Positions 34,512-58,993 of a stretch of DNA of 64,000 nt are shown here, one piece after another. Position 1 is the first letter of the stretch; every line of letters begins with the position of its first letter. The stretch is taken from contig NZ_FOIJ01000008.1 of NCBI RefSeq assembly GCF_900111745.1, positions 62,001-126,000 of the forward strand, in the 5' to 3' direction. The notes beneath the pieces were generated by a model. It saw nothing but the letters and a program-made list of their open reading frames with translations, did not search any database and was not told the DNA's origin. The position numbers and the translations under genes were made by a program. Source of the DNA: Stigmatella erecta. GTDB lineage: Bacteria > Myxococcota > Myxococcia > Myxococcales > Myxococcaceae.

Positions 34512-34529
34512 CGACCGGAGGTACCGGCT

Positions 34530-34668
34530 GGGCCTGCTCCGATGGGGTGGCTCTCCCTCACTTCATGGGGCTCAGCGGCAGCGAGCAGGCGAGCCCCGCT
34601 CGTGCGGCTGTCCGCATGCCCCAGGATCCACACAAACTGCGGAAGAGCCACCCCATCGGGGCAAGCCC
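34530..34668. repeat. Large imperfect inverted repeat
   Basis: Arms 34530-34554 and 34644-34668 are 25 bp with two mismatches. The inner core GATGGGGTGGCTCT is perfect. Weaker pairing continues towards a CGAGC-CCC-GCTCG centre near 34593. Such a structure fits a MITE-like remnant, but no target duplication was found. Confidence 0.7.
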
Positions 34669-34973
34669 ACAGGTGCCCACCGACGACGACGTGCATCTGC
34701 CCCGGCGACGGTTGATGGCGCAGATGCGCGGCGCGGGCGCCTGCGACAGCGCGCTTCAGTCACACCGAGGGCGAGAAGGGCCGTTGGCAGGCCTCGATGC
34801 GCGTTACTGCCGATCGCGAGGAAGAACTCCCGTTCATCAGGGAGGAGAAGTCCGGCGCCTGGAAGCCCGCCTCGGTCTCAACCTTCTCGGACGCGTGCGG
34901 CCGAGGACGCAGGCATGAGGGCAGGGAGGAGCGGACGCATGTCTTCAGGTTCCCGTGCAGAAGGGGGCACATC

Positions 34974-35180
34974 GTGCCGTCCGGCTCGACAGCGTGATCG
35001 CGTACCCCTTGAACCGGGCATTGTTCGGCAGGCTCATGGAGTGCATCTGTTTCGCCGGATCGAGTGCGAGGGATTGGCCAAACCTCTCGGGGTAAACCCA
35101 GAGCCGCCGGAGGTCGAACACCCCGGAGCGTGGGTGCGGCGAAAGTAGCAGCACCTGCTTGTTCACGGCGCTTGCCCGCA
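34974..35180 (-). pseudogene. Fragment of a GH92-type C-terminal domain
   Basis: The minus strand encodes FGQSLALDPAKQMHSMSLPN followed by ARFKGYAITLS. This matches the last 35 residues of the GH92 protein at 43267-46581 (FGQSLALDPTKQVHSMSLPN) with few changes. DNA identity is about 90% over roughly 95 bp. Weaker similarity reaches a VLL-PH-R stretch near 35140-35175. The stop codon is missing, apparently through loss of about 37 bp: the 13-bp sequence GTGCCGTCCGGCT that flanks the GH92 terminator also occurs at 34974. No start or body remains. Confidence 0.82.
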
Positions 35181-35193
35181 CATACGATGAGGC

Positions 35194-36450
35194 GTGCCTC
35201 ACCACACCAACTGGTCCCGCAACGTCGAATACTCGGCAGCCCGTTTTCACCGGCCTGGCTCGCTCGACGAGGTGAGGGAGATTGTCGCCAAGGCGAAGGC
35301 CGTCCGCGCTCTCGGGTCACGGCACTCGTTCAACACCATCGCGGACACGCCGGGCGACCTGATCTCCCTGGAGGCGTTCAACCCAGAAGCCGTGATCGAC
35401 CGCGAAGCCCGGACGGTCACCGCCAGTGGCGGCATCCGCTACGGCGAGCTTGGCGCCCGGCTCCAGGCAGAGGGATTCGCCCTGGCGAACCTCGCGTCGC
35501 TTCCGCACATCTCGGTGGCCGGTGCCATTGCGACCGCGACGCATGGCTCTGGATGCGCGAACCGGAGCCTGGCGTCAGCGGTCGCGGGGCTCACGCTTGT
35601 CACGGCCAGCGGCGAGACGCTCGCGCTGACCCGGGCGAGCCCAGACTTCGCGGGAGCCGTCGTCGGTCTGGGGGCCCTGGGCATCGTTACCTCGGTCACC
35701 CTCGATATCGAGCCGGCGTTCACCGTCGCGGTCAGCGTCCACGAGGAGCTCGCCTGGGACACCCTGTTGAACCACTTCGACGCGATCACCGGTGCCGCCT
35801 ACAGCGTGAGCCTGTTCACGAACTGGGCACGGGACACGATCGATCAGGTCTGGCTCAAGCAGCGTTCCCCGGGGGCGCTGCCCATCGAGGGCCAGAGCTT
35901 CCACGGCGCCGTGCCTGCCCGGGTGCGGCGGCATCCCCTGCTTGGCGTCTCACCCGAGGCCTGCACCGAACAACTCGGCATCGCCGGGCACTGGATCGAC
36001 AGGCTGCCCCACTTCCGTCTCGACTTCACCCCGAGCCGGGGCGACGAACTCCAGTCCGAATACATCCTGCCCAGGGCCCACGCGGCCGAGGCCATCCAGG
36101 CCGTGCGCGCGCTGGCCAGCCGCATCGCGCCGCTCCTGCACATCGCGGAGATCCGGACGATCGCCGCCGACGATCTCTGGCTCAGCATGGCGTACCACGA
36201 GGCCAGCGTCGGTTTCCACTTCACGTGGAAGCGCCTGCAACCCGAGGTGGAGGCCCTGCTTCCCGCCCTCGAAGGAGCGCTCGCGCCGTTCAGGGCCCGG
36301 CCCCACTGGGGCAAGCTGTTCCATGCCCAGGCCGGGCACATCGCGACCCTCTACGAGAAGCTGCCGGCCTTCGTTTCGCTGGCCGAGCGGCTGGATCCAG
36401 GCCACAAGTTCCGCAATGCTTTTCTCACCCGCCATGTCTTCGGCGGCTGA
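35194..36450 (+). CDS. FAD-linked alditol oxidase-like protein
   Basis: 418 residues, VAO/PCMH flavoprotein. It resembles actinobacterial AldO, which oxidises terminal hydroxyls of xylitol and sorbitol with release of H2O2; the length is the same. The FAD-binding domain has RALGSRHSFN with His44 (the expected covalent FAD site) and SVAGAIATATHGSG. The C-terminal ALO domain ends HPGHKF-type (LDPGHKFRNAF). The start is GTG at 35194 with GATGAGG upstream. Sugar-alcohol specificity is inferred from similarity only. Confidence 0.87.
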   Translation: MPHHTNWSRNVEYSAARFHRPGSLDEVREIVAKAKAVRALGSRHSFNTIADTPGDLISLEAFNPEAVIDREARTVTASGGIRYGELGARLQAEGFALANLASLPHISVAGAIATATHGSGCANRSLASAVAGLTLVTASGETLALTRASPDFAGAVVGLGALGIVTSVTLDIEPAFTVAVSVHEELAWDTLLNHFDAITGAAYSVSLFTNWARDTIDQVWLKQRSPGALPIEGQSFHGAVPARVRRHPLLGVSPEACTEQLGIAGHWIDRLPHFRLDFTPSRGDELQSEYILPRAHAAEAIQAVRALASRIAPLLHIAEIRTIAADDLWLSMAYHEASVGFHFTWKRLQPEVEALLPALEGALAPFRARPHWGKLFHAQAGHIATLYEKLPAFVSLAERLDPGHKFRNAFLTRHVFGG

Positions 36451-36538
36451 CGCTCCAGGAACGCGAGGGGGGCTGCGCCGCCCCGGAAGCCGCGCGGCGC
36501 TCCTCTTTGGGGTCTTGAGCGGCTTGAGTTCCGCAGCG

Positions 36539-36546
36539 TGACGTCA
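36539..36546. promoter_or_regulatory. Palindrome TGACGTCA before the ABC operon
   Basis: 8-bp perfect palindrome 19 bp upstream of the ABC ATPase start. Short enough to occur by chance. Confidence 0.25.
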
Positions 36547-36565
36547 TAGAGGCCATCCGTCCACC

Positions 36566-37510
36566 ATGACCACCCCCCTGCCACCCATCATCTCCGTCTC
36601 CGGCCTGACCAAGACCTATGCGTCAGGGCTTCATGCGCTGAAGAACATCGATCTGGAGATCCGCAAGGGCGAGATCTTCGCCCTGCTGGGCCCCAATGGG
36701 GCTGGAAAGACGACGCTGATCAACATCATCTGCGGCATCGTCACCCCCAGCTCGGGAAAGATCGTCGCCGACGGGCACGACGTGCTCCGGGAGTACCGCG
36801 CCGCGCGGTCCAAGATCGGGCTGGTGCCGCAGGAGCTGGTCACCGACGCCTTCGAGACCGTGTGGGCGACGACCTCCTTCAGCCGCGGTCTGTTCGGCAA
36901 GGCGCCCCATCCGTCTTACATCGAGAAGGTGCTCCGGGACCTCTCCCTGTGGGACAAGAAGGACGCCAAGATCATGACGCTGTCGGGCGGCATGAAGCGG
37001 CGGGTGATGATCGCCAAGGCGCTGAGCCACGAGCCGGAGATCCTCTTCCTCGACGAGCCGACCGCCGGTGTGGACGTGGGGCTGCGCCGGGACATGTGGG
37101 AGCAGGTCCGGGGCCTGCGCGAGAAGGGTGTGACCATCATCCTGACCACCCACTACATCGAGGAGGCCGAGCAGATGGCCGACCGGATAGGGGTCATTTC
37201 CCAAGGGGCGCTCATCCTCGTCGAGGACAAGACCAGCCTGATGAAGAAGCTGGGCAAGAAGCAGCTCACCCTGAACCTCCAGACGCCGCTGACGGCCCTC
37301 CCGGCCGGGCTGGCCGAGTGGCCGCTCACGCTGAAGGCCGGCGGCCATGAGCTGGAGTACGTCTTCGACGCGAACGAGGAACGGACGGGTGTGCCGAGCC
37401 TCCTGCGGCGGTTGAGCGAGCTGGACATCGGGTTCAGGGATTTGAACACACGCCAGAGCTCGCTCGAGGACATCTTCGTGGGCCTGGTCAAGGAGCGCAC
37501 CGCATCATGA
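36566..37510 (+). CDS. ABC transporter ATP-binding protein
   Basis: 314 residues. Walker [11 protein letters not shown]-loop LVPQELV, signature LSGGMKRR, Walker B ILFLDEPT and H-loop THY are all intact. A C-terminal DUF4162-like tail follows. It is the DrrA/YadG type used by ABC-2 exporters of drugs, lipids or polysaccharides. The 3' end overlaps the permease gene by 4 bp, so the two form one complex. Confidence 0.95.
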
Positions 37511-38280
37511 GCATGACCTTCAACGGCCATGGCGTTTGGGCCATCTACCGGTTCGAGATGGCACGGGCGCTGCGCACCCTGGTGCAGAGCGTGGTGACCC
37601 CGGTCATCACCACCTCGCTCTATTTCGTGGTCTTCGGCTCGGCGATCGGCCAGTCGATGAAGCAGGTGGACGGCGTGCCCTACGGCGCCTTCATCGTGCC
37701 CGGCCTGATCATGCTCAGCCTGTTCACCCAGAGCCTGTTCAACGCCAGCTTCGGCATCTACTTCCCCAAGTTCACCGGAACGATCTACGAGCTGCTGTCC
37801 GCGCCGGTGAGCTACCTGGAGATCGTCATCGCCTACGTCGGGGCAGCCGCGACCAAGTCAGCGGTCCTGGGGTTGATCATCCTGGCCACGGCGGCGATGT
37901 TCGTGCCCATCCACATCCTCCACCCGCTGTGGATGATCGCCTTCCTGGTGCTGACGGCGGTGACCTTCAGCCTGTTCGGCTTCATCATCGGCGTCTGGGC
38001 CAACAGCTTCGAGCAGCTACAGTTCATCCCCATGCTGATCGTGACGCCGCTGACGTTCCTGGGCGGCGCGTTCTACTCCATCGACATGCTGCCGCCCGTC
38101 TGGCGCACGGTGACCCTGTTCAACCCGGTGGTCTATCTGATCTCGGGCTTCCGCTGGAGCTTCTACGGGACGGCGGACGTGGCGGTGGAGGTGAGCCTCC
38201 TCATGACGCTGGGCTTCTTCCTGCTGTGCCTGGTGGTGGTGGGGTGGATCTTCAAGACGGGCTACCGGTTGAAGAACTAG
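37507..38280 (+). CDS. ABC-2 type transporter permease
   Basis: 257 residues with six predicted membrane segments (around 28-48, 61-80, 100-125, 135-160, 170-190 and 232-252). It has the ABC-2 signature near [16 protein letters not shown]. YadH-like. It pairs with the preceding ATPase to make a half-size exporter that probably dimerises. Cargo unknown. Confidence 0.94.
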
Positions 38281-41668: not shown

Positions 41669-42502
41669 TCAGGCGCTCCGGGCGTAGCGGCGGGGGGTCA
41701 TCCCATAGGAGGCCTTGAAGCTCCGGGCGAAGTGGGCTTGGTCCGCGAACCCCAGCGAGTAGGCCACCTCCCCCGCGGGCACTCCCTGGCGCAGCAGCGG
41801 CAGCGCGCGCCACAGGCGCAGGCGTTGCTGGTAGGCGTGCGGAGGCAGCCCGGTGTCCCGGGCGAAGACCCGCGCGAGGTGGAACTTGCTCAGGCCCACG
41901 GCGCTCGCCAGGTCCTCCAGGGACACTCCCTCCGGAGCGTTGGCGTGCAGGTACTCGCGGGCGCGGCGGACCGCGCGCACCTCGGAGCCCAGGGGGTACA
42001 GGGCGGGGCTCCCGGCGCGCCGCAAGAAGACGTCCACCATGGCCTCCACGAGCCATGTTTCCCACTCGAGTGGGGTGGCGCCCTCCCAGAAGCGTTGATG
42101 GAAGCGCAGCAGGCTGTGCGCGGCGCGCGCATCCGCGAAGGCGGTAACTTCGATGGGCAGGGGCCTCGGATGGCGGGAGGTGCCTTCGATGGCGCGCTCC
42201 AGCACGGCGGTCTCCAGACGGAGCCCGCTCAACACGGGCAGGTGGCGCGGATCGCTGGAGGCCGCGTGGAGCGTGTGGGGCGGCACGAAGAAGAGGGCAC
42301 CCGTGGGGCCCGCCTCCTGGGTGTACAGCCCGGACTCCGTCTCCGTGGTGACCACGCCCTCTTGGAGCAGGCCGAGCTCCCACCGGGCGTGCACGTGCAT
42401 GTCAGCGGCAAAAGGCTTCCCCTCTGCCCGGAAGAGCTCGAACCCGGTGGCCTGCTGCCAAGGGCTCTTCTGCTCGCCGTGTGTGCAATCCCTCTGCCCC
42501 AT
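41669..42502 (-). CDS. AraC-family transcriptional regulator
   Basis: 277 residues. An N-terminal cupin-like AraC ligand domain (FAADMHVHARWELGLLQEG with VPPHTLHA) is followed by two C-terminal HTH motifs: VSLEDLASAVGLSKFHLARVF and GEVAYSLGFADQAHFARSFK, ending TPRRYARS. It may regulate the downstream beta-propeller lipoprotein gene. Confidence 0.93.
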   Translation of the reverse strand: MGQRDCTHGEQKSPWQQATGFELFRAEGKPFAADMHVHARWELGLLQEGVVTTETESGLYTQEAGPTGALFFVPPHTLHAASSDPRHLPVLSGLRLETAVLERAIEGTSRHPRPLPIEVTAFADARAAHSLLRFHQRFWEGATPLEWETWLVEAMVDVFLRRAGSPALYPLGSEVRAVRRAREYLHANAPEGVSLEDLASAVGLSKFHLARVFARDTGLPPHAYQQRLRLWRALPLLRQGVPAGEVAYSLGFADQAHFARSFKASYGMTPRRYARSA

Positions 42503-42706
42503 GCGTTGTGCCTCCCCTCAGGAGCATAGGAGAAATTCGGCCAGGGAATCCCCAGACGAGGTCCTGGGCTCGTGAGGTCTCGTAGAGACGCCGTGCGCGC
42601 ATCCGGGCTCCGTCGATTATCCCCAGCGAGCGAAGGCCTATCCTCTGGCGCGCTGGCGCGACGACGTCATGGGGACCGGTGTGCTCGCCCACGAGGGTGC
42701 TCGTTC

Positions 42707-43215
42707 ATGTTGGATAGTCCAGGGTACAGGGTTCTCGGTACCCTCCGGGCCACGGGCTCGAACGCGCTGTTCCAGGCGGTGCGAGAGGCCGATGGCCTGC
42801 CCGTCATCATCAAGACGCCCATGGCGGCCTCTCCGGGGCGCATGGAGAGCGAGCGGTACCGGCGGGAGTTTGGCATCCTGTAATGGCTGCGGGACGTGCG
42901 GGGGGTGGCCAGGCCCTATGCCTGCGAATCGGGGGAAGGGCGGCTCATCGACTTCGGCGTGGCCACGCCCTGTGGGTGCGGCTGTGGGTGGAGGGGCCGG
43001 TGGTCCGCATCCAGGTGGTGGATGATGGCGTGGGCATCGCCCCCGAGGTGAAGGGCAAGCTGTTCTCCCACGGTTTCACCACGCGCAAGGACGGCCACGG
43101 CTTCGGCCTGCTCTCCAGCGCGCTGGTGGCACAGCTCCTCGATGGCCGCCTGACCATCGAGAGCGAGGGACCGGGAAAGGACGCCGTCACCACGCTGGAG
43201 CTTCCGCTCCACTGA
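42707..43215 (+). pseudogene. Collapsed Ser/Thr kinase-histidine kinase hybrid gene
   Basis: From the ATG at 42707, about 57 residues match the N-terminus of large hybrid kinases with a protein-kinase domain first: GYRVLGTLRATGSNALFQAV, then the Lys strand IIKTPM. A TAA at 42881 interrupts the frame (a CAA or AAG codon would continue it). The same frame then gives WLRDVRGVARPYACE and RLIDFGVAT, the latter possibly the DFG loop. The last 85 residues, in another frame, are a histidine-kinase ATPase end (VDDGVGIAPEVKGKLFSHGF, HGFGLLSSALVAQLLDG). The whole middle is deleted. Confidence 0.83.
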
Positions 43216-43219
43216 CGGA

Positions 43220-43247
43220 GTGCCGTCCGGCTTACACCGGACGGCAC
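43220..43247. terminator. Perfect bidirectional hairpin
   Basis: GTGCCGTCCGG-CTTACA-CCGGACGGCAC, an 11-bp perfect stem, 4 bp after the kinase remnant and 19 bp beyond the GH92 stop. One arm plus two bases recurs at 34974 beside the GH92 tail fragment. Confidence 0.72.
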
Positions 43248-43266
43248 CGGGCTTCGTCTCATCCAC

Positions 43267-46200
43267 TCAGGACAGGGTGATCGCGTACACCTCGAACCGG
43301 GCGTCGTTCGGCAGGCTCATGGAGTGCACCTGTTTCGTTGGATCAAGTGCGAGGGATTGGCCGAACAAGCGCACCGGAGGTCCATCCACGCCGCTCCCGG
43401 CTTTGATCCGGTGAGGCATGTCGAGCAGCACGCTGCTGCCGGACGGCGCGTTTCCCGCCCAATCCCCGGCGGTGACCGGCAGGTCCACCACGCTGCCATC
43501 GGTGTACCGGACGGAGACCGTCGTCGTCACGGGACCATTGTGCGACGTGGAGACCAGGTGGAGCGTCTGGTAGTTGCCTCCCGGAAGCAGGATTCCCTGG
43601 CCGCGTGCCTCCACGAAGTTGTGCGTGGTCCCGCCCGGGTCGGGCGCCGAATACGCCACACCCGCCCAGGTGACGGAGCCGGCCGCGGGCAACAGGGTGG
43701 CGTCATAGCTCCAGCCCTGGCCGTCGAAGTTGCCCTCTCGCGATTGGGCAACCGTCGCGGTGCCGTCATGGTTGCGGTCATTCGTCAGGTCCACGGCGCA
43801 TTGTCCGGAGACGCCGGTCAGACAGGCGCCCGCCGGCCGCAGCTCGAGGGTCACGTTCCGGGTGACGGTGTTCGCCCCTTCCGCCGTGACGGTCACCTGG
43901 ACGGGATACACGCCCGCGGGCGTGTGGGCGGGCACGGTGATGGCAAGGGGCCCCGTCCACTGCACGGGCAGATGCCGTGACGACAATGCGAAGGATGCCG
44001 CAGGGGCGGCCCAGCCCGCCGGGACGGCCGGCGTCACGGTGATGTCCAACCCCTCGGGGGCCTGGCCGAGCACATCCAGCGTCAGCTCGATCGTCTGGGC
44101 CTCACTGCTGAGGGGCAGGACGGCCGCGGACGGCCGCACGGAGGCGTCGACATGGCGGCGGGAGTCCCCCTCGCCCGGATTGACCGACGGGGGCCTCGCG
44201 CTGCTCCCGGTGCCCCAGCTGGAGGGCGCGTCGCCGAGTGTATGGGCCAGCTGGCCGCCCCGGAGGACCTCGTTCCACTCCACATAGGCCCGGGTGAGCT
44301 CCTGGCCATCGAGCGTCACGCGCTGGATGTACCGCCGGGTGTCGCTGGCACCGGGCGCCGTGAGGGTCAGCGTGCTGGCCGGACGGGTGCCGTAGGCCCC
44401 AACACGGACCACGGCGGACTCGAACTGGGGGCTGGACAGGGCAAGGAAGTTCGCGCCACTCATCGTCGGATACAAGCCGAGCGACGAGAAGACGTACCAG
44501 GCGGACATGGTGCCCAGGTCGTCGTTGCCCGTCATTCCGTCCGGCCCCGTGGTGAACAATGTCATCGCCGCGCGCACGACGGTGGCCGTCTTCGCGGGCG
44601 CTCCCGCCCACAGGTACATGTAGGGCGCGAGCAGGTCGGGCTCGTTGTTGGGGTTGTACGTGGGCTTGCCGTAATAATCGTAGGGTTGGGTGATCCAATC
44701 CGCGCGAGCAGTCCCTGTGGGATCCGCGAGCAGCTTGCCGTAGGCGAAGAAGGTATCCAGACGCTGTTCGGCCGCGCGCTCACCGCCCAGGAGCGCGATC
44801 AGCCCGGCCGGATCCTGCGGCACCAGCCAGTGGTACTGGTGAGCCCCTCCCTCGTGGAACTGGTGGGAGGCTTCCACCGGATCATACGGCGTCAGCCACG
44901 TGCCATTGGCCGTGCGTGGACGGAACTGGCCGAGGGAGGCGTCCCACAGGTTGCGGTACCACTGCCCGCGTTCGGCGAACATCCGGGCATCGTCCTCGTG
45001 TCCGAGCCCTCGCGCCATCAACGCGAGCGCCGCGTCGGCCGCCGCGTACTCAAGTGTCGCCGAGGCCGGGTGTACGCAGTCGTTGTCCCCGCCCTTGTGC
45101 GCGCAGTCGACGCCCAGCCTCAGGCCGGAGGGGATGTATCCCCGATCGTTGTAATACGTGACGCCCGAGCGGCCGTTGTAGGGCGAATCGGAGGGAGGCG
45201 TCTGGAGCGCGTTCTTGCGCAGCAGCGCGTAGGCCTCCTGCTCATGACCCGCGAGGAGTCCCCGGGCCCAGACTTCGACGAGGAAGGGCGTCACTGGATC
45301 CCCCGTCATGATGTTGGTCTCGCTGTTGGCGAGCGACCAGCGGGGCAGCCAACCCCCATGCCGACCGATGGCGAGGATCGACAGCGCGACGTCCCGGGCG
45401 ACCTGCGGCTCGATCACTTCCAGCAAGTGGTTCTGGGGACGGTACGTGTCCCACAACGAGAAGTTCTGGTACGGCGTGTAGCCGCTCGCCTCGTGGACCT
45501 GGTTGTCGAAACCAACGTACCGGCCGTCCACGTCACCGGCCAGGTTCGGGTGCAGTTGCGCATGGTACAGGGCGCTGTAGAAGGCGGTCTGCCGGTCGCG
45601 GGTGCCTCCGCTGATCTGGATGGCGCCGAGCTTGCTGGCCCACGCGTCATGCAGCCGGGTCCGCGTGGCCTCGAAGTCGAAGGACTCTCCGGTCTCTTTC
45701 GCGAGGTTCTTCCGGGCGCCCTCGAGCCCGGTATAGGACAGGCCCACCTTCACGATGACGTCCAGGTCCGTGGTCGCATCGAACGTCACCCAGGCGCCGT
45801 TGTTCCCAGAACCGGCCGCGTCCCGGGCGCCCGGGGTCCGGGTGGAGCCGCGCCAGGTGCCGTGGGTCGCGAAGGGCCGGTCGAACGTGGCCGTGAAGTA
45901 CACCGTGTGCTGGTCCCGCCCGGCGCAGAAGCCGCCTGCCCGGACGCGGCCCTCGAGGGTCCGGTCCCCGACGACGTGGATCTCCGAGTCCTGGACCGCC
46001 TGGTTGGCCTTGCCGGTGTTGAACAGGACGTTCGCGGTGGCCGTGGACGGGAAGGTGAAGCGCAGCCAGCCGGTCCGCTCGGTGGCGGTGAGCTCGGCGT
46101 TGATGCCGTAGCGTGAGAGTCCGACGCGGTAATAGCCGGGTGTGGCCTCCTCGTCGTCATGCGAGTACTTCGACTTGTAGCCGTTGATGTCAACGGACTC

Positions 46201-46581
46201 GACGGCACCGGTCGTGGGCATGATGGGCAATTCACCCATGACGCCGCAGCCGACACCCGACAGGTGCGTCTGGCTGAAGCCGTAGATGGCGTCCTGTTGG
46301 TAGTCGTATCCGCCCTGGCCGCCCGTGTCCGGACTGAGCTGCACCATGCCGAAGGGGGCGCTCGCGCCGGGAAAGGTGTTGCCGAAGTTCTGGGTGCCGA
46401 TGAAGGGATTGACGAGCTGGGTGGGATCCACCGCGGGAGGAGGGGGGGGAGGCGGGGGTTGGGGCTCCTCCTCCCCTGGAACGTCGGGCTCATCGCTGGG
46501 GGGCTGCGGGTCTTTGCATCCGGCGATCAGGAATCCGGCGACGGCCAGACCCACCATGCTTCTCCTGTGGAACAACCACAT
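43267..46581 (-). CDS. GH92 alpha-mannosidase lipoprotein with NEW3-type and jelly-roll domains
   Basis: 1104 residues. Signal with lipobox LIAGC (Cys 22), an Asp/Pro-rich spacer, then a GH92 exo-alpha-mannosidase (about 52-780). Family signatures are VNPFIGTQNFGNTFPGASAP, FHEGGAHQYHWLVPQD (general-acid Glu) and GNDDLGTMSAWYVFSSLGLYP. An NPCBM-associated NEW3-type Ig domain (about 830-925) and a terminal jelly-roll module (about 930-1104) follow. It trims alpha-mannose from N-glycans or yeast mannan at the cell surface with bound calcium. The domain order recalls actinobacterial GH92 enzymes. Divergent from the subtilisin-lectin gene. Confidence 0.92.
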   Translation of the reverse strand: MWLFHRRSMVGLAVAGFLIAGCKDPQPPSDEPDVPGEEEPQPPPPPPPPAVDPTQLVNPFIGTQNFGNTFPGASAPFGMVQLSPDTGGQGGYDYQQDAIYGFSQTHLSGVGCGVMGELPIMPTTGAVESVDINGYKSKYSHDDEEATPGYYRVGLSRYGINAELTATERTGWLRFTFPSTATANVLFNTGKANQAVQDSEIHVVGDRTLEGRVRAGGFCAGRDQHTVYFTATFDRPFATHGTWRGSTRTPGARDAAGSGNNGAWVTFDATTDLDVIVKVGLSYTGLEGARKNLAKETGESFDFEATRTRLHDAWASKLGAIQISGGTRDRQTAFYSALYHAQLHPNLAGDVDGRYVGFDNQVHEASGYTPYQNFSLWDTYRPQNHLLEVIEPQVARDVALSILAIGRHGGWLPRWSLANSETNIMTGDPVTPFLVEVWARGLLAGHEQEAYALLRKNALQTPPSDSPYNGRSGVTYYNDRGYIPSGLRLGVDCAHKGGDNDCVHPASATLEYAAADAALALMARGLGHEDDARMFAERGQWYRNLWDASLGQFRPRTANGTWLTPYDPVEASHQFHEGGAHQYHWLVPQDPAGLIALLGGERAAEQRLDTFFAYGKLLADPTGTARADWITQPYDYYGKPTYNPNNEPDLLAPYMYLWAGAPAKTATVVRAAMTLFTTGPDGMTGNDDLGTMSAWYVFSSLGLYPTMSGANFLALSSPQFESAVVRVGAYGTRPASTLTLTAPGASDTRRYIQRVTLDGQELTRAYVEWNEVLRGGQLAHTLGDAPSSWGTGSSARPPSVNPGEGDSRRHVDASVRPSAAVLPLSSEAQTIELTLDVLGQAPEGLDITVTPAVPAGWAAPAASFALSSRHLPVQWTGPLAITVPAHTPAGVYPVQVTVTAEGANTVTRNVTLELRPAGACLTGVSGQCAVDLTNDRNHDGTATVAQSREGNFDGQGWSYDATLLPAAGSVTWAGVAYSAPDPGGTTHNFVEARGQGILLPGGNYQTLHLVSTSHNGPVTTTVSVRYTDGSVVDLPVTAGDWAGNAPSGSSVLLDMPHRIKAGSGVDGPPVRLFGQSLALDPTKQVHSMSLPNDARFEVYAITLS

Positions 46582-46823
46582 GAACAGAACTCCTCGTTGT
46601 GACGGCGTTGTGGGGGGAAGAGAAGAAACCCTTTCACCATGTCACGCCGCGGCGCCACGCGGCCCAGTGAAGCCGAAGTGTGCAGTATAGGAAGGATGGA
46701 ATGCCTGTTGAGGAGGCGCTGGCCGCAGCTTCGGCGGCTAAATAATTCTTTGCATCATTTTGCGCCCCGCCGGATCCTCCGCCCTGAGTGCATCCCCTCA
46801 TGCCTCATGAATGGAGAAATGCC
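46582..46823. promoter_or_regulatory. Shared promoter region of the mannosidase and protease genes
   Basis: 242 bp between two divergent exoenzyme genes. An AT-rich element (CTAAATAATTCTTTGCATCATTTTGC, centred near 46750) stands out and could be the protease -10 region. Co-regulation is inferred from the layout. Confidence 0.4.
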
Positions 46824-48431
46824 TTGCTGAAACCTTCCTGGAAGCACTTGATGCTCACCTCTGGCCTCACCGTCCTCTCCGCCTGCGGAGCTCCATCCGC
46901 TGATGCCACAGAGCCCCAGGGACAGGCGGAAGACGCTGCCTTGACGGCCGGCACACCGTCGGCGCGGGAGGGTGCTTCGGCTCTCGCGGCCCTGACCGCA
47001 GGCAAGTTCTTGAGGTCCTCCGACGCCATTCCCGGGCAGTACATCGTCGTGCTGAAGGGCACCTCACTCCGCACCGCCCAGATCTCCCAGGTTGCCCAGA
47101 CTCTCGCCCTCCCGCAGCGGGCCACCGTCACCCGGACCTATGCGCACGCCCTGAATGGCTTCGTGGCGCAAACCACCGAGGAGGGGGCCCGTGCGATCGC
47201 CGCTCAGCCCGAGGTGGAGTACGTGGTGGAGGATGGACACGTCCACACCACGGCGACGCAGTCTGGCGCCACCTGGGGGCTGGACCGCATCGACCAGATC
47301 AACCTTCCGCTCAACGGCACCTACAGCTACGGCCCGACCGGCGCCGGGGTGAACGTCTACATCATCGATACGGGCATCGAAACGAGCCACTCCCAGTTCG
47401 GGGGCCGGGCCTCCGGCGATTACACCGCTGTCGCCGACGGCAATGGCACCAACGACTGCAACGGTCACGGCACGCACGTGGCCGGGACGGTGGGCGGAGC
47501 GACCTGGGGCGTGGCCAAGGCGGCCCGCCTCCATGGCGTCCGCGTGCTGGGCTGCAATGGCTCGGGGTCGATCTCTGGCGTCATCGCGGGCGTGGACTGG
47601 GTGACGGCCAACCGCATCAAGCCGGCGGTGGCCAACATGAGCCTCGGCGGGTCGCCCAACCCAGCGCTGGATACGGCCGTCAGCAATTCGATCGCCTCGG
47701 GCGTCACCTACGTCATCGCCGCGGGCAATAGCTACATCGACGCGTGTTATCCCTCCCCCGCGCGGGTCCCCGAGGCCATCACGGTCGGCGCCAGCGACAG
47801 CACGGATTCCACGGCCTCCTTCTCCAACTGGGGCCCCTGCCTCGATGTCTTCGCCCCGGGGGTGGCCATCACCTCTGCCTATCTGGGCGGCGGCTCCGCG
47901 ACCCTGGACGGGACCTCGATGGCCGCGCCCCATGTGGCCGGTGTGGCGGCGCTGTACCTCGAGAGCAACCGCGCCGCCACCCCCGCCACGGTGGCCACGG
48001 CGATCGTCCTCAATGCACCGGCGAACAAGGTGCGCAACACCATCAACGGCTCCACCACGCGCTTGCTCTACAGCAATCCGCCTCCCGCGTGCGGCACGCT
48101 CGGCAGTGGCCAGGCACTCGCGCCTGGACAGATACTCCCGGCCTGCTCTGGCAGGGCCTACCTCGCGCATCAGACCGATGGGAACGTGGTGCTCTATGGC
48201 CAGTCGGGCGCCGTGCTCTGGAATACGTTCACCTGGAACCAGACCACGTCCACCTTCGTCATGCAGACCGATGGGAACCTGGTGCTCTATCCCAGCTCGA
48301 TGAGCGCGATCTGGAACACTGGGACCTATGGGAACAGTGGGGCCTCCCTGAAGGTGCAAGACGACTGCAACCTCGCCGTGTACAGCGCGGGAGGCTCCCT
48401 CCTCTGGGCCAGCAATACCACCTGCCGGTAG
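46824..48431 (+). CDS. Subtilisin-family protease lipoprotein with bulb-type lectin domain
   Basis: 535 residues from a TTG at 46824, which has GGAG at a good distance and gives a short signal with lipobox VLSAC; ATG 46800 and GTG 46788 are alternatives. An I9 propeptide (IPGQYIVVLKG to YVVEDGHVH) precedes an S8 proteinase K/aqualysin-type domain with catalytic Asp182 (YIIDTGIE), His215 (GHGTHVAG) and Ser365 (GTSMAAPH). The last 110 residues form a B-lectin domain with three QxDxNxxxY motifs (QTDGNVVLY, QTDGNLVLY, QDDCNLAVY) typical of mannose binding. Secreted or surface-held protease that probably docks on mannosylated prey glycoprotein. Confidence 0.92.
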   Translation: MLKPSWKHLMLTSGLTVLSACGAPSADATEPQGQAEDAALTAGTPSAREGASALAALTAGKFLRSSDAIPGQYIVVLKGTSLRTAQISQVAQTLALPQRATVTRTYAHALNGFVAQTTEEGARAIAAQPEVEYVVEDGHVHTTATQSGATWGLDRIDQINLPLNGTYSYGPTGAGVNVYIIDTGIETSHSQFGGRASGDYTAVADGNGTNDCNGHGTHVAGTVGGATWGVAKAARLHGVRVLGCNGSGSISGVIAGVDWVTANRIKPAVANMSLGGSPNPALDTAVSNSIASGVTYVIAAGNSYIDACYPSPARVPEAITVGASDSTDSTASFSNWGPCLDVFAPGVAITSAYLGGGSATLDGTSMAAPHVAGVAALYLESNRAATPATVATAIVLNAPANKVRNTINGSTTRLLYSNPPPACGTLGSGQALAPGQILPACSGRAYLAHQTDGNVVLYGQSGAVLWNTFTWNQTTSTFVMQTDGNLVLYPSSMSAIWNTGTYGNSGASLKVQDDCNLAVYSAGGSLLWASNTTCR

Positions 48432-48439
48432 AGGAAAGG

Positions 48440-49309
48440 CTACGGAGCGGTGGGTGCCCGCTGGGTATAGACGGTGGGCATCACCGCGCGCATGCGCGCG
48501 CCCAGCCCGACGAGGCTCTCGGAGTGTCCGAGGAAGAGCAAGCCCGAGGGGGACAAGTGGCTCAGCAACCGTTCCACGGCGTGTGCCCGTGAGGTCTGGT
48601 CGAAGTAGATGAGGACGTTGCGGCAGAAGATGAGATCGAAGCGTCCCACGACTCCGTGCCCATCATTCAGGTTCACGCGGTGGAAGCGCACCAACCCGCG
48701 CAGCTCCGCGTCCGCCTTCATCCACTCCTCCTGGCTGCCCACGCCTCGCAGCATGAAGGCCCGGAGGTAGTGGTTGGGAATCTCCCGCGCCTTCTTGACC
48801 GGGAAGCGGGCCTGCCGGGCCTGCTCGAGAATGCGCGTGGAGAGGTCCGTTGCCAGGATGTCGATTTCCCAGCCCTCCGCGACGGGCAGGTGGTGGCGCA
48901 GCACCATGGCCAGCGAGAAGGGCTCCTCTCCTGTCGAACAGCCCGCGCTCCAGACGCGGACTCGCCGCGGCTCACCATTTCCGGTCGTCTTCTGCGCCCT
49001 CCAGCGGGGGAGCACCTCGCGTTCCAGGAACTCGAAGTGACGGGGCTCCCGGAAGAAGTGCGTCTCGTGCGTGCACAGCGCGTCCACTAACCGCACCCGC
49101 TCCAGGTCGTCCGTCTCCGCCCGGCGCAGGTAGGCACCGAACGAGGGACTCTTCAGCTCGCGCAACCGGCGCGCCAGCCGGCCCACCACGAGGGCCTTCT
49201 TCGCAGGAGAGAGCCAGATGCCCGCCTCACGGTAGATCAGCCGCTGGAACCCCGTGAACTCTCGCTCGGACAGCGGAGGGGGCTCGAAGAATGCCTCGAC
49301 CTGTTTCAT
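48440..49309 (-). CDS. cheR: CheR-type chemoreceptor methyltransferase
   Basis: 289 residues. N-terminal CheR domain (FTGFQRLIYREAGIWLSP), then the SAM-binding domain: VWSAGCSTGEEPFSLAMVL, DILATDLSTRIL and FDLIFCRNVLIYFD. It methylates glutamates on the receptor encoded two genes upstream. The ATG overlaps the cheW stop by 4 bp. It is the last gene of the chemosensory operon; no cheB accompanies it. Confidence 0.94.
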   Translation of the reverse strand: MKQVEAFFEPPPLSEREFTGFQRLIYREAGIWLSPAKKALVVGRLARRLRELKSPSFGAYLRRAETDDLERVRLVDALCTHETHFFREPRHFEFLEREVLPRWRAQKTTGNGEPRRVRVWSAGCSTGEEPFSLAMVLRHHLPVAEGWEIDILATDLSTRILEQARQARFPVKKAREIPNHYLRAFMLRGVGSQEEWMKADAELRGLVRFHRVNLNDGHGVVGRFDLIFCRNVLIYFDQTSRAHAVERLLSHLSPSGLLFLGHSESLVGLGARMRAVMPTVYTQRAPTAP

Positions 49310-49848
49310 GTCTCCCCTTCAGGGGGGCCATGGCCGGACGCTTCGGATGGAGGAGCTGCCGTGGCCAAGGCGATTTCCTGGGTGCTGAGCACCTTGTTGA
49401 TGTCCAGCAACAGGACGAAGTGCCGCCCCGTCGCCACCCGCCCCATGCCCACCAGATAGTCCGCGTGCACCGGGGTGCCAAAGGAGGGCGGGGGCGCCAC
49501 ATCCTCGGGCGCCAGCTCGATGACCTGGCCGATCGCGTCGGCGAGAAGCCCCAGGACGATCTCCTCGCCCTCCAGCCGCACCTCCACCACCACGATGCAG
49601 CTGCGGCGGGTGAGGGTGGCCGGTGGCAGGCTCAGCTTGATCGTCAGGTCCACCACGGGCACCACGTTGCCGCGCAGGTTGAACACCCCGCGGACCCACA
49701 CGGGCGCTCCCGGGACGGGCGTCACGGTGTCGTATTCGATGATCTCCTTCACCTGCAGGATGCCGAGCGCATACTCCTGCGCGGCGAGGATGAAGCTCAG
49801 GTACTGCGTGGCGGCGGATGTCTCCTCGGTCGTGTTGTTCATGGTCAC
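49306..49848 (-). CDS. cheW: CheW coupling protein
   Basis: 180 residues with one CheW SH3-like fold: [22 protein letters not shown], then [21 protein letters not shown] and [15 protein letters not shown]. It links the receptor to CheA. The stop overlaps cheR and the start overlaps the mcp gene by 4 bp. The C-terminal tail of about 35 residues ([15 protein letters not shown]) is low-complexity. Confidence 0.94.
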
Positions 49849-51518
49849 ACCTGGAAGCGCTTGAACTCGCGATCCTCATCGGTGGGAGCGAGGGGGGCGC
49901 GAGGCGGGGGGTGGGCTCCCGGGTTGAGCCCATGCGCGGCGGCTTTCAGCCCGGGCGCGGATGGGCCGCCCGCGAAGCGGTTCCCCATCACCCGCGAGGT
50001 GCGCTCATAGCCATCCCCCACCCGGAAGAAGGACACCAGCTGCTGCAATGCCTCTGCCTGGGCGGACAGCTCCTCCGCGGTGGAAGCGAGCTCCTCGGAG
50101 GCCGAGGCGTTGCGCTGGGTCACCTGGTCCACGTGAAGCATGGCCTTGTTCATCTGGGTGACGCCGCTGGCCTGCTCCGCGGAGGCGGCCACCACTTCCT
50201 GGACCAGGTCCGCCGTCTTGCGGATGGAGGGCACCAACTCCACCAGCAACTGCCCCGAGCGCGAGGCCACCTTCACGCTCTGGGAGGCCAGGCTGGAGAT
50301 CTCCCGCGCGGCCGTCTGGCTGCGCTCGGCCAGCTTGCGCACCTCGGTGGCCACCACCGCGAAGCCCTTGCCATGGGCTCCCGCGCGCGCGGCCTCGATG
50401 GCCGCGTTGAGCGCCAGCAGGTTCGTCTGGTAGGCGATCTCCTCGATGATGGAGATTTTCTCCGCGATGGAGCCCATGGCCTCCACCGTCTCCTTCACGG
50501 CCCGGCCGCTCTCGTCGGCATCCCGGGCGCCCTGCACGGCCATCTGCTCCATCTGACGGCTGTGCTCGCGGTTCTGGGTGATGGTGGCGGTGATCTGCTC
50601 GAGGCTGGAGGTGGTCTCCTCCACGCTGCTGGCCTGCTCGCTGGTCCCCTGGGACAGGCTCTGTGACGAGGAGGACACCTGCGCCGAGGCCGAGGCAAGC
50701 GTGCTCGCCCCCTCGCGGACCTCACTGATGACCTGGGCGAGCTTCTGCACCATGCGCTGCATGGCCCCGAGCAGCCGGCCCGTCTCGTCCTCGGCCGTCG
50801 AGGCGATGCGCACGGTGAGGTCTCCTTCGGCGATGCGGTCCGCTACCTGTACCGCGTCGGCGAGGGGCCGGGAGATGACCCGCGAGATGAGAACGCTGAG
50901 CAGCACACCCGCCAGGAAGCTGAAGCCCACGACGGTGAAGATCCACCCTCGCGCGGCGGCATAAATGTCATCCGAGTCATTCGAGGCACTGCTCGATGAC
51001 TTCTGGATGGCTGCCACCAGCTCCTCCAGCTTGTCGCTGGCGCGCTGATACGTCTCCTGCAGGCGGCCTTGCTCGACGGCGCGAGCCTCCTCTTTCTGAT
51101 TGGAGCGTGAGAGGGCGAGGAGCCGCTCATGTTCCTCCAGGAAGTCCCTCCAGAGCTTGTTGAACTCCTCGTACATGCGCCGCTCCTCGGAGGAGGAGAT
51201 GAGCGTCTCGTACTTGCGCAAGTTGGAGTCGATCGACTCCAGTTCCTGCCGCATGCTCCGTTCGTAACTGGCCATGCGCACGGCATCGGTCGACAGCAGG
51301 TGTTGATGCTCGTAGATGAGGAAGTCCGAGGAGTCGGTGTTCGCGGTCGAGACGAGGATGATGCTGGGCATCCGGTTGTCGGTCACCACGTCGGTCGCAT
51401 CGTTCATCTTGCTCAGCTGGTGGATGGCGAAGGCGCCGAGCAGGACGCTGAGCATGCTCAAGCAGAGGAAGGACAAGAGCAGCTTGGAGGAGATCTTCAA
51501 GTCGTAGAACCAAGTCAT
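49845..51518 (-). CDS. Methyl-accepting chemotaxis protein
   Basis: 557 residues. TM1 (about 12-33), a periplasmic four-helix-bundle sensor (about 35-190), TM2 (about 192-213), a HAMP domain ([21 protein letters not shown]) and a coiled-coil signalling domain. The hairpin tip [22 protein letters not shown] is fully conserved. Methylation-type Glu/Gln pairs flank it. After the last helix a disordered Pro-rich tail follows, with no CheR/CheB-binding pentapeptide. The start has a CU-rich, not SD-like, leader 18 bp after the cheA stop, so translation may be coupled. Confidence 0.94.
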
Positions 51519-51536
51519 AGGAGGAGGGAGAAGGGC

Positions 51537-53174
51537 TCAGGCGGGGAGGGCCGTGGAGGGCGTCTTCACGGCCTGTTGGAGGAGCGCGGGCACATCGAGG
51601 ATGAGGGCGACCCGGCCATCGCCCAGCAGGGTCGAGCCCGAGAGCCCCGGCAATCCCTGGCAGAACTTTCCCAGGGGTTTGATGACCGTCTGGCCCTGGC
51701 CGAGCAGCGTGTCCACGGCGAGACCCGCGACGCCCCGCCCATGGCCGATGACGACGAGGTTTTCCCGGGCCGGTGCGCTTCCCTCCAGGCCGAAGTGCTC
51801 ACGCAAGCGGACGTACGGGAGCGCGGCTCCCCGCAGGTTGACGAAGCCGGTGCGTCCGGAATGGCTCTCCTCTACGGGCAGCTCCACGCACTCGAGCACG
51901 TTCTCCAGGGGGATGACGTACGTCTGGGCGCCCACGGCGACGCTGAAGCCTTCGATGATGGAGAGGGTGAGTGGCAGGCGGAGGCTGAAGGTGGTGCCCT
52001 GTCCTGGGGTGCTCTCCACGGAGACGGTGCCCCGCAGCATCTCCACGTTGCGCTTCACCACGTCCATGCCCACCCCGCGGCCGGACAGATCGGTGACGCG
52101 CTCGGCGGTGGAGAAGCCCGGCTCCAGGATGAGCCGCAGGAGGGCTCCGTCGTCCGGCGTCTCCTCCGGCCCGAGCATCCCCAGGGTTCTGGCGCGCCGG
52201 GTGATGCGCTCGCGATCCAGGCCCGCCCCGTCGTCGGCCACCTGGATGACGATGGTGCCCGCCTCATGGAAGGCCCGGAGGGCCAAGGTGCCGGTGGGCT
52301 CCTTCCCGCTCGCCTGGCGCACCTGGGGCGTCTCCAGGCCGTGGTCCATGGCGTTGCGAACCAGGTGGTTGAGCGGATCGCGGATGAGCTCGGCGACGGT
52401 GGTGTCCACCTCCACGTCCTCGCCGCTCACCTCCCAGCGGATCTGCTTCTCCAGGCGGAGGCTCAGGTCGCGCACCGTGCGTCCGAAGGGCTGGAAGGTG
52501 CGCCCGATGGGCACCATTCGCACCTTCATCACCAGCTCCTGCAGGTCCAGGTAGAGCCGGTCTCCCTCCCGATGGGCCTCCAGCAATTGTTGGGGCGTGT
52601 AGCGGTTCGCCTGCGCGAGCATGGTGGCCAGGCGTCCGCGCGCGATGGCGATCTCCCCGGTGAGGTCCAGCATCCGGTCCAACCGGTGCAGCTCCACCCG
52701 CAGGGTGTGCTCCCGGGGCGCAGCGGTTTCAGGGGAGGGTTTGGCGGGCTCCTGTGGCAGCGCCCGGCCGGTGAAACTCGCGGGGCTGGCGGCCTTGACC
52801 AGGCTCGCCAGGAGCCCATGCACTTCCGCGGCAGGCAAGCCCATGGCGGGGTCGCTCGCTCGCGTCAACCCCACCCGCTCCCGGAGCCCATCCACTGCCT
52901 GCAAGAGCAGTGAGCCCAGCCCCTCGTACAGCATGATGGCCTGCGTCTCCAGAAGGGTGAGCAGGTCTTCCAGCGTGTGGGCCAGCTCCACCGCTTCGGT
53001 AAGCCCGAGCGAGGAGGCGGCGCCCTTGAAGGTGTGGATCGTGCGGAAGACGGCCTGCAGGCGCTCCGGGCCGAATGAGCGCTCGAGCGCAAGCAGCTCC
53101 TGCTCCAGGGTGGCGAGCAGCTCCTCGGCTTCGGCGAGGAACACAGCGTGGACCTTCTCCAGCTCGGGAGTCAT
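51537..53174 (-). CDS. cheA: CheA histidine kinase
   Basis: 545 residues from the ATG at 53174; an in-frame TTG at 53207 is less likely. HPt domain with phospho-His47 (RTIHTFKGAASSLG), a short linker (no clear P2 response-regulator-docking domain), dimerisation P3 (HRLDRMLDLTGEIAI), ATPase P4 (HLVRNAMDHGLE, VADDGAGLD, GRGVGMDVV) and CheW-like P5. It phosphorylates a response regulator; the only candidate nearby is the NtrC-type protein upstream. Confidence 0.95.
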   Translation of the reverse strand: MTPELEKVHAVFLAEAEELLATLEQELLALERSFGPERLQAVFRTIHTFKGAASSLGLTEAVELAHTLEDLLTLLETQAIMLYEGLGSLLLQAVDGLRERVGLTRASDPAMGLPAAEVHGLLASLVKAASPASFTGRALPQEPAKPSPETAAPREHTLRVELHRLDRMLDLTGEIAIARGRLATMLAQANRYTPQQLLEAHREGDRLYLDLQELVMKVRMVPIGRTFQPFGRTVRDLSLRLEKQIRWEVSGEDVEVDTTVAELIRDPLNHLVRNAMDHGLETPQVRQASGKEPTGTLALRAFHEAGTIVIQVADDGAGLDRERITRRARTLGMLGPEETPDDGALLRLILEPGFSTAERVTDLSGRGVGMDVVKRNVEMLRGTVSVESTPGQGTTFSLRLPLTLSIIEGFSVAVGAQTYVIPLENVLECVELPVEESHSGRTGFVNLRGAALPYVRLREHFGLEGSAPARENLVVIGHGRGVAGLAVDTLLGQGQTVIKPLGKFCQGLPGLSGSTLLGDGRVALILDVPALLQQAVKTPSTALPA

Positions 53175-53291
53175 GGGTCCGGAAGGCAAGAGCAATCCGC
53201 ACGCCAAAGATACATCTGTTCAGAAGTGCGCGGAACTCCTTGCCTTGTGAAATGGAGCCATGCTCGATGCTCAAACTTTTGAATCTGGATT

Positions 53292-54638
53292 CTAGACTTT
53301 GGACGAAAGGCCCAAGCTCTTCAGGCGTTGATACAGCGAGCTGCGGGGAATCCCCAGTCGCTGGGCAGCCCGGCCGACATGGCCTCCCTCGGCTTCCAGT
53401 ACGCGGGTGATGTGGCGGCGCTCCACTTCCCGCAGGGTGAGGTGCAGCTCGGGTGCGCTGGGGGCCTCTTCGGGGAGTTCGTTGAGCATCCGCGCGATGG
53501 CGGAGCCGTTGAACTGCAAGTCCTCCACGCGCAGGGTGGAACGGGAAGAGAGGAGCACGGAGCGCTCCAGCACGTTGCGCAGCTCGCGCAGGTTGCCGGG
53601 CCAGGGGTAGGCGCGCAGGGCGGCCTCTGCCTGCGGGGCCAGCTTGAGTCCTGGGCGTCCGAGTTCACGCGAGAGCTGTTCGAGCGAGGCGTGGGCGAGC
53701 GGGGAGATGTCCTCGGGGCGCTCCCGCAGGGCGGGAATGTGCAAGGGCAGGGTGCTGATGCGGAAATACAGATCGCTGCGAAACTGCCGGGCCCTCACCC
53801 GCTCGACGAGATCCTGGTGGGTGGCGGCGATGAGCCGGATGTCCACCGAGCGCTCCTCCACCTCTCCCAGGCGCCGGAAGCGCCGCTCCTCCAGCACCTT
53901 GAGGAGCTTGGGTTGGACGAGGGGATCCATGTCTCCCACTTCGTCGAGGAACACGCTGCCCCGGTGGGCTCGCTCGAGCAGGCCCTGCTTGCTGCTGACG
54001 GCACTGGTGAAAGCGCCCCGCTCGTGGCCGAAGAGTTCCGTTTCCAGGAACTGGGGCGACAGGCCCGCGCAGTTGAGTTGAATCAGGGGCTCATGGGCCC
54101 GGGGCCCGTGGCGGTGCAGCCAGGATGCGAGCACGCCCTTGCCCGTTCCAGTCTCTCCCTGGATGAGGATGGAGCGGTCACTGTCGCGCACGCGCTGCGC
54201 GGTGGCTTCCAACTGGCGGATGAGTGGACTGGTCCCCAGGAAGGGATCGAGTTCCTCCGGTGGGTTCCGGGCTCTCCGGGCCTCGTGGACGCATGCCACC
54301 ACCCGCGACAGCACGGGCCAATCCACCGGTTTGGGAAGAAACTGCTCCGCCCCCAGCTTGACGAGCTGCACGGCCCTGTCGATGGATGGGTTCTCGGCGA
54401 GAACGATCAGAGAGGTGAGGGGGGACATTTCCCGGAGCTCGGGAAGCAGCTTGAGCACGGAGAGACCCGGCAAACGGTCATCGAGCAGCACCACTTCCAG
54501 CGGGGCCCGGCGCAGGGACTCATGCGCCTCCTGGCTGTTTCGGGCCTCGGAGACCTCCCAGCCAGTCTCCTCCAGCCACCGGCGAAGGGTTGCACGGACC
54601 AACGGATCCGCATCAGCGATCAAACACCTACCTCTCAT
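53292..54638 (-). CDS. NtrC-type response regulator and sigma-54 activator
   Basis: 448 residues. The receiver domain (about 4-115) has Asp9/Asp11, phospho-site Asp53 (LLDDRLPG) and Lys in LPKPV. The usual Thr/Ser switch after VL is Ala (VLAEN). The AAA+ domain has Walker A GETGTGKG, the sigma-54 loop GAFTSA instead of GAFTGA, and Walker B VFLDEVGDM. A Fis-type HTH (GHVGRAAQRLGIPRSSLYQRLK) closes the protein. First gene of the chemosensory operon, 117 bp upstream of cheA; probably the pathway output. Confidence 0.93.
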   Translation of the reverse strand: MRGRCLIADADPLVRATLRRWLEETGWEVSEARNSQEAHESLRRAPLEVVLLDDRLPGLSVLKLLPELREMSPLTSLIVLAENPSIDRAVQLVKLGAEQFLPKPVDWPVLSRVVACVHEARRARNPPEELDPFLGTSPLIRQLEATAQRVRDSDRSILIQGETGTGKGVLASWLHRHGPRAHEPLIQLNCAGLSPQFLETELFGHERGAFTSAVSSKQGLLERAHRGSVFLDEVGDMDPLVQPKLLKVLEERRFRRLGEVEERSVDIRLIAATHQDLVERVRARQFRSDLYFRISTLPLHIPALRERPEDISPLAHASLEQLSRELGRPGLKLAPQAEAALRAYPWPGNLRELRNVLERSVLLSSRSTLRVEDLQFNGSAIARMLNELPEEAPSAPELHLTLREVERRHITRVLEAEGGHVGRAAQRLGIPRSSLYQRLKSLGLSSKV

Positions 54639-56017: not shown

Positions 56018-56500
56018 GGGCACTCCTTGAAGTTACGGTGAGGCAATTCAACCCAAGCCTAACAGGGGGCTCAAGAAGTAAGCCCAGGTCAAGGAGGAGA
56101 AGTTCTTCGATCAGGGGCTCACCCCGCACTACGCCTTCAACACCGAGCAGGCGCGGCAGAAGGCGCAGCTCCAGCGGACCTTCGAGAGCGAAAGAGACCT
56201 CATCGGCGCGCTCAGCAAGCGCTATCCGGCGAAAGGCGAACTGGCCGACGGCTTCCAACTGTCCGTGGATTACGCGCTGGCCTGGGAGCCCCCATCCCGT
56301 GAATTGCAGCTTCGTCACCGTGCCCCCTTGGGACGCGATGGCGTTGCGGATCCAGTTCTTCCCGGTGTGACTTCAAGCCCGGCCAATCGCTCGGGCCGTG
56401 TTCCCGGCGGGTGCCGTCACGAAAGATAGACATTCTTGCCAAAAAGAGAGGAGGCTTCCCGGAGAGGGCGCAGTGTTTCCCTCCATCAGATGAGGAATCG
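56018..56500. other. Intergenic region with a coding-like fragment
   Basis: 483 bp between the DJ-1/PfpI gene and the RCC1 gene. It contains the fragment at 56082 and the promoters of both flanking genes. No complete gene. Confidence 0.5.
56082..56300 (+). pseudogene. Coding-like fragment without a start
   Basis: Directly after a TAA, one frame reads a well-behaved helical protein segment (VKEEKFFDQGLTPHYAFNTE onward, to VDYALAWEPP) of about 72 residues, then degenerates. No ATG/GTG/TTG precedes it. Probably the remains of a gene; family not recognised. Confidence 0.38.
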
Positions 56501-58981: not shown

Positions 58982-58993
58982 CCGGGCGTTGCC

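Follow-up and report, generated by a model that had tools for sequence, protein, structure and literature searches.

Two exoenzyme genes stand back to back at positions 43267-48431 of a 64,000-nucleotide stretch of the Stigmatella erecta genome (contig NZ_FOIJ01000008.1; the whole stretch is referred to below as the window), and their arrangement raises the question of whether they form a functional module or have merely come to lie side by side. One gene encodes a family GH92 exo-alpha-mannosidase, the other a subtilisin-type (S8) protease with a C-terminal lectin domain. A first-pass annotation had proposed that both products are tethered to the cell surface and, together with a nearby GH76 protein, attack fungal mannoprotein. 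Our analysis points instead to a recent meeting of independently distributed exoenzyme genes, in which a GH92 gene of actinobacterial origin was captured and re-anchored beside a separate lectin protease that is released from the cell; we regard this as the probable explanation. The features of the gene pair are as follows.

43267-46581, minus strand: GH92 exo-alpha-mannosidase lipoprotein (1104 residues), assigned by profile domains and catalytic residues
46516-46581, minus strand: predicted GH92 lipoprotein signal, MWLFHRRSMVGLAVAGFLIAG followed by the lipobox Cys (LIAGC) and then by Lys at +2
46582-46823: intergenic region (242 bp)
46601-46612, minus strand: decayed relic palindrome CACAACGCCGTC, three mismatches from GACAACGTTGTC, at -31 from the GH92 ATG
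46824-48431, plus strand: S8 protease of the proteinase K/aqualysin type (535 residues), TTG start
46824-46886, plus strand: protease signal peptide with the lipobox LSA followed by Cys, assigned by pattern
47037-47249, plus strand: I9 propeptide, a profile match
48090-48428, plus strand: B-lectin (MMBL) domain with motifs at 48171-48197, 48264-48290, and 48357-48383

Distribution of the two genes

Close relatives of both proteins were searched for in 96 genomes of the family, with E values of up to 1e-150 for GH92 and up to 1e-125 for S8 proteins aligned through the lectin. GH92 genes were detected in 8 genomes and S8 genes with the lectin in 9, and both were present in six (G000, G001, G002, G003, G012, and G039). 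The two genes were adjacent in only two of these six, G000 and its nearest relative by both genes, G002, which form a sister pair. In G001, G003, and G012 a distance of over 2 Mb separates them on a single contig, and in G039 they lie on different contigs, each at least 40 kb from a contig end. The neighbour families of GH92 and S8 in the other genomes were unrelated and gave no other link between the two genes. Across the 96 genomes, among the candidates scored, the synteny in other myxobacteria that a GH92/S8-lectin module had led one to look for was absent beyond the sister species. The S8 copies of G001 and G003 have a different N-terminus and show 62% identity, compared to 92% for the GH92 proteins of the same genomes, and therefore look like another subfamily. 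To judge from these comparisons, the S8 gene of this locus may have had a history of its own.

The actinobacterial relatives of the GH92 gene (see below) provided no trace of the module either. A lectin match was found in none of 80 loci with flanks of up to 10 kb, an S8 match in three, and a partial GH76 match in one, and no conserved neighbourhood was apparent, the commonest neighbour family occurring in just 14 of the 80 loci.

Gene coordinates confirmed the annotated divergence of the two genes from one 242-bp gap, a length that follows from taking the TTG at 46824 as the S8 start. A GGAG 7 nucleotides upstream supports this start, as does the occurrence of TTG with GGAG at L005 and L015. 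The corresponding gap in the sister species is 185 bp. At the other GH92 loci, the sister species excepted, intergenic homology ends 34-50 bp upstream of the GH92 ATG, and the gap is therefore best described as a junction rather than an old shared control region. A shared divergent promoter was considered and rejected, since the single sigma-70-like site found in 42400-49400, compared to 0.5 expected by chance, is no evidence for one.

Probable actinobacterial origin of the GH92 gene

The best 80 of 118 GH92 loci obtained with one genome per species all belong to Actinomycetota, and their products are 65-74% identical to the window protein, nearly all of them from about residue 50 to the end. 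Among 195 Myxococcota genomes, the best match after the eight family GH92 genes was only 44% identical. In a tree of 90 rows, the eight myxobacterial sequences grouped together as a single clade with support 100. This clade sits within 71 rows of Pseudonocardiaceae and Streptomyces (support 97), and Micromonosporaceae fall outside. The secreted GH92 proteins of Allokutzneria, Amycolatopsis, and Streptomyces share with the window enzyme not only this level of identity but also the domain order from about residue 50 and the catalytic residues; a characterised Streptomyces member of the family is ShAM1 (PMC10269736).

The leader of the gene carries what would be independent evidence for the same origin. 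The palindrome GACAACGTTGTC, with at most one mismatch, was found in the 320 nucleotides before the residue-50 position in 56 of the 80 actinobacterial homologues, compared to 4 of 386 random stretches taken from these loci. It begins 31 nucleotides before the ATG at both Allokutzneria loci, and the myxobacterial copies stand at precisely this distance, with one mismatch at L006, L012, and L013 and two at L011 and L014. These five well-kept copies share a T-to-C change at position 9. The relic in the window was recognised because its orthologues carry better copies at the same distance.

The 14-base form of the palindrome, TGACAACGTTGTCA, occurred with at most one mismatch 6-15 times per genome in eight actinobacterial genomes, compared to 0-1 times for the reversed control. 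By coordinates, six of the 20 exact sites are upstream of the very GH92 homologue that had led to the choice of the genome. Among 13 of the other 14 that were examined, nine are at the start of another GH92 gene (Pfam or tblastn). Of the four left, one precedes a GH5/CBM10 gene, another is the second member of a site pair, and no GH92 gene begins next to the other two. Several of the one-mismatch sites looked at also precede GH92 genes (L122, L131, L136, L138, and L141) and one precedes a GH97 gene (L137); those of L132, L133, and L139 had nothing recognisable beside them among the genes scanned. Based on these positions, we propose TGACAACGTTGTCA as a candidate operator of an actinobacterial GH92 (alpha-mannan) regulon in the L113-L144 genomes, a set of sites that apparently has no name so far in the open-licence literature, where the site sequence led to two papers with unrelated titles and a LacI-type mannosidase regulon to one on Clostridium. 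The 9.2-Mb window genome contains the 14-base palindrome at two places, with one mismatch each and no GH92 gene within the 3 kb examined, and the set of sites therefore did not arrive with the gene.

A probable change from released to tethered enzyme

Lipoboxes and signal types were called by pattern and by eye. The two lipoboxes annotated earlier, LIAGC in GH92 and LSAC in the protease, were recovered in this way. The lipobox Cys and Lys at +2 are present in all eight myxobacterial GH92 genes (the window and seven loci), and the residues vary from +3 on. In contrast, none of the 80 actinobacterial loci showed the lipobox pattern in the stretch of up to 75 residues that precedes the homologous part, and the signals there look like type I. 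In Myxococcus xanthus, Lys at +2 was reported for 8 of 12 inner-membrane lipoproteins (PMC3222651). Taken with this rule, the conservation of Lys in 8 of 8 orthologues would point to the inner membrane and not to the surface where the enzyme had been placed, and by analogy with M. xanthus a periplasm-facing inner-membrane tether is the likeliest reading.

The myxobacterial GH92 signal aligned with both Allokutzneria signals (z of 6.8 and, gapped, 5.7 against shuffled leaders), and at one of these loci (L034) 20 signal residues align with it ungapped. The myxobacterial lipoprotein signal is likely, on this comparison, a converted old actinobacterial signal. That the new Cys codon arose by loss of a single base was considered but dropped as unproven. 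Lys at +2 occurred in none of eight non-GH92 lipoprotein candidates found in 412,919 bases with a strict pattern that missed known ones; with 11 candidates left after duplicate removal, three of them GH92, this sample is too small to lean on.

Predicted activity of the GH92 enzyme

The identity of the mannosidase held up at the level of domains and residues. PF07971 (493 bits, cut-off 24.6) and PF17678 (262 bits, cut-off 34.5) together cover residues 56-784 of 1104. The predicted catalytic acid Glu577 and base Asp688 (the last residue of NDD, 686-688) are invariant in 31 aligned sequences and align with structure 2wvx, which we take to be BT3990. The same family domains, acid Glu, and base Asp are found in the Bacteroides enzymes BT3990 (alpha-1,2) and BT3130 (likely alpha-1,3). 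The signs reported for the alpha-1,2 subtype are the DED and His-Glu motifs (PMC12858847), in BT3990 DED and His584-Glu585 (PMC12858847; PMC5930347). Unlike the Bacteroides alpha-1,2 enzymes, the window protein aligned with 2wvx has NDD in place of DED, a motif reported for alpha-1,3 enzymes, and lacks His-Glu; alpha-1,2 specificity is therefore predicted to be unlikely. The C-terminal accessory region (43270-44166, minus strand) includes a weak NEW3/Ig-like part below cut-offs. Residues 930-1103 (window 43273-43794) had no Pfam domain above cut-off and matched the solved proteins Azi28 and AziU2 weakly (E of 3e-6 to 5e-6).

A part in the use of alpha-mannan is plausible for GH92 and for GH76, and a role connected with yeast or fungi would likewise be plausible. 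Streptomyces lavendulae grown with yeast raised expression of secreted GH92 enzymes 16.1-fold on average at 12 h. The co-culture nevertheless showed little mannosidase activity, and one mannosidase, once purified, did not act on mannan (PMC13170338). From the myxobacterium Cystobacter fuscus HM-E, a crude enzyme preparation is described as weakly active on mannan (PMC11936981).

The lectin protease

The protease matched PF00082 with 139 bits and the propeptide family PF05922 with 40 bits. Asp182, His215, Ser365, and Asn302 are invariant in nine aligned sequences, and from their roles in the S8 family we take the first three to be the catalytic triad and Asn302 the oxyanion Asn. The S8 domain and the mature N-terminus are shared with keratinase (5wsl), aqualysin I (4dzt), and proteinase K, and the I9 propeptide with the proteinase K zymogen (8rse). 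The mature protease is expected to start at ATQSGATWG (47253), as judged by homology to the N-terminal residues of 5wsl and 4dzt. Compared to these solved relatives, the window protein adds a C-terminal B-lectin domain and a lipobox before the propeptide. Its lipid anchor would be on Cys21, ahead of the I9 propeptide, and the solved relatives start at the position that corresponds to residue 144; maturation should therefore free the enzyme and the lectin together. The lipobox Cys is absent in two of the nine aligned sequences (L016 8709-10241 and L017 8726-10258), and the anchor of this protease family is therefore not fixed, consistent with its being dispensable.

The three intact QxDxNxxxY motifs noted in the first-pass annotation (QTDGNVVLY, QTDGNLVLY, and QDDCNLAVY, the third with Ala for the first Val of QxDxNxVxY) proved to be kept in eight of nine aligned sequences, including the window, which is more than chance; L018 lacks the third. 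The PF01453 lectin scored 25.6-25.7 bits, below the Pfam cut-off of 32.4, whereas the protease of the sister species reached 34.1 bits with neighbouring repeats. As a family-wide marker, B_lectin matched in 23 of 96 genomes, with the window genome below the threshold of that search. Among solved structures, the lectin domain alone best matched pyocin L1/L2 and putidacin L1 (E of about 1e-17, best 3.5e-17), followed by plant agglutinins (1e-14 to 1e-10), and a mycobacterial lectin matched nearly as well. The NCBIfam model LLB_putidacin scored 85.7 bits on the protease, short of its cut-off (275). MMBL domains with QxDxNxVxY motifs also occur in pyocin L1 and putidacin L1, where two of them stand in tandem, whereas the window lectin is one three-motif domain fused to a protease.

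The sites of these two bacteriocins are reported to prefer D-rhamnose over D-mannose, with the motif contacting both sugars alike (PMC3916391). The original assignment of a mannose-type lectin thus stands for the motifs and the MMBL homology, but mannose is not singled out, the nearest solved relatives preferring the D-rhamnose of bacterial lipopolysaccharide. From these resemblances, bacterial prey would be at least as likely a target of the protease-lectin as yeast. A search of the open-licence literature returned no publication on a lectin-protease in Myxococcus.

GH76 and neighbouring genes

The remaining member of the proposed module was located where it had been annotated, 13 kb from the pair:

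61758-63185, plus strand: GH76 family protein (475 residues)

It matched PF03663 with 175 bits and has a type I-looking signal and no lipobox. Close relatives were found in 7 of 96 family genomes, and a relic operator was not seen by eye in the 150-250 nucleotides upstream in four genomes. About 135 kb separate GH76 from GH92 in G001 and about 153 kb in G003, and the two are closer together in the sister species than in the window. Both families also share one neighbourhood in alpha-mannan loci of Bacteroidota, e.g., in Salegentibacter (PMC9213526). In contrast to those loci, no SusC/SusD-type match was obtained among 28 window proteins scanned, and the arrangement is not conserved across species.

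Downstream of GH92, the window encodes a lone HATPase domain of 110 residues (42883-43215), which looks like a kinase remnant, since the frame of the sister species has 286 residues; there it is set apart from GH92 by about 4 kb of other DNA. On the other side of the pair, a co-directional minus-strand run of chemosensory genes (48440-54638: CheR, CheW, MCP, CheA, and a sigma-54 response regulator) ends 8 bp from the S8 stop codon. This run is kept in the sister species, and in G001 a 91% identical CheA is encoded at a great distance from S8 as well as GH92. An RCC1-repeat protein of 856 residues and a CARDB-containing protein are encoded at 56411-61638, after the chemosensory genes and before GH76; the same region of the sister species has only a 100-residue match to the RCC1 gene. 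Farther away, NmrA-like, AtaL-like, FAD-oxidase, and ABC transporter genes stand in a row at 32990-38280, perhaps a small biosynthetic or detoxification cluster.

Alternative explanations and a proposed history

According to the explanation we favour, a gene for a secreted actinobacterial alpha-mannosidase would have entered this myxobacterial family, most simply once, and would have brought along its leader, including operator and ribosome site, probably with the signal peptide, which then became a lipoprotein signal with Lys at +2. The enzyme would most likely be envelope-tethered and, should the rule from M. xanthus apply, would sit on the inner membrane towards the periplasm. It would take terminal alpha-mannose, though probably not in alpha-1,2 linkage, off mannan fragments. 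The protease, distributed separately, would act outside the cell after activation by removal of its propeptide, its lectin tail staying on the released enzyme and binding mannose- or D-rhamnose-type glycans on prey. The stricter version of this history, in which GH92 was captured a single time with leader and operator and its signal was then rebuilt to include a residue for inner-membrane retention, so that a shared enzyme outside the cell became one kept by the cell, and in which the operator derives from a small, apparently unnamed actinobacterial set found mostly before GH92 genes, seems to us evenly poised between true and false.

Several observations weigh against this history. The family counts may be low, since scoring was limited to the best 7 GH92 and 15 S8 candidates of each genome, and the GH92 scan may have omitted records close to the window genome. 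In the tree, two very long outgroup branches are not trustworthy, and the tree does not fix where inside the actinobacterial group the myxobacterial clade branches. The palindrome was spotted by eye in actinobacterial loci and counted afterwards, and 24 of the 80 loci show none beyond chance. At the 31-nucleotide distance the window gene has three mismatches and L005 and L007 have five; taken alone, the window relic is no better than chance (29 matches with up to three mismatches in the window, compared to 17.6 expected). Other actinobacterial leaders reach z values similar to those of Allokutzneria (L067 6.0 and L027 5.7), and replacement of the signal is therefore an alternative to its conversion. 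The Lys+2 rule comes from another genus and is based on 8 of 12 proteins, and FibA with an added Lys at +2 was not retained in the inner membrane (PMC3222651). Finally, six of the seven genomes with GH76 also hold GH92, and the two genes are close together in two species, which leaves room for a shared task, although this co-occurrence is confounded by kinship.

These last facts, together with the divergent arrangement, both lipoboxes, the lectin motifs, and a GH76 gene nearby in both sister species, speak for the co-regulated module, i.e., a surface-tethered GH92 and a lectin-docked protease that attack fungal mannoprotein together with GH76. We consider it unlikely in view of the missing adjacency in four of six genomes with both genes, the 80 actinobacterial loci devoid of a lectin, Lys+2 on GH92, a protease anchor that sits on the propeptide, and the ambiguous lectin ligand. 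A better, still tentative candidate, judged somewhat short of an even chance and compatible with the capture of an actinobacterial GH92, is that the protease-lectin is aimed at bacterial prey and, in the manner of lectin-like bacteriocins, binds D-rhamnose-containing lipopolysaccharide or some other polysaccharide of bacteria, and that its adjacency to GH92 would be accidental. The pyocin and putidacin matches, the sub-threshold LLB_putidacin score, and the reported D-rhamnose preference agree with it, but the matches to a mycobacterial and to several plant mannose lectins are almost as good, and the motif makes the same contacts with either sugar (PMC3916391). That GH92 is old in the myxobacterial family and was given to actinobacteria appears very improbable. 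The gene does occur in three genera (g1, g3, and g7) with about 85% identity between them; however, the myxobacterial clade has little depth and lies within a wide actinobacterial group, the gene was detected in 8 of 96 family genomes and, among the other 99 of the 195 Myxococcota, in none at that identity, and the 6-15 palindromes per genome in eight actinobacteria compare to two in the window genome.

With recent juxtaposition as the preferred explanation, the fungal-attack module, tempting but unsupported, comes off the list. In its place stands a proposed, testable cross-phylum transfer, in which an enzyme seemingly changed from released to membrane-tethered, and a candidate alpha-mannan operator in actinobacteria, a group in which GH92 genes are reported to rise on yeast prey (Streptomyces lavendulae, PMC13170338).

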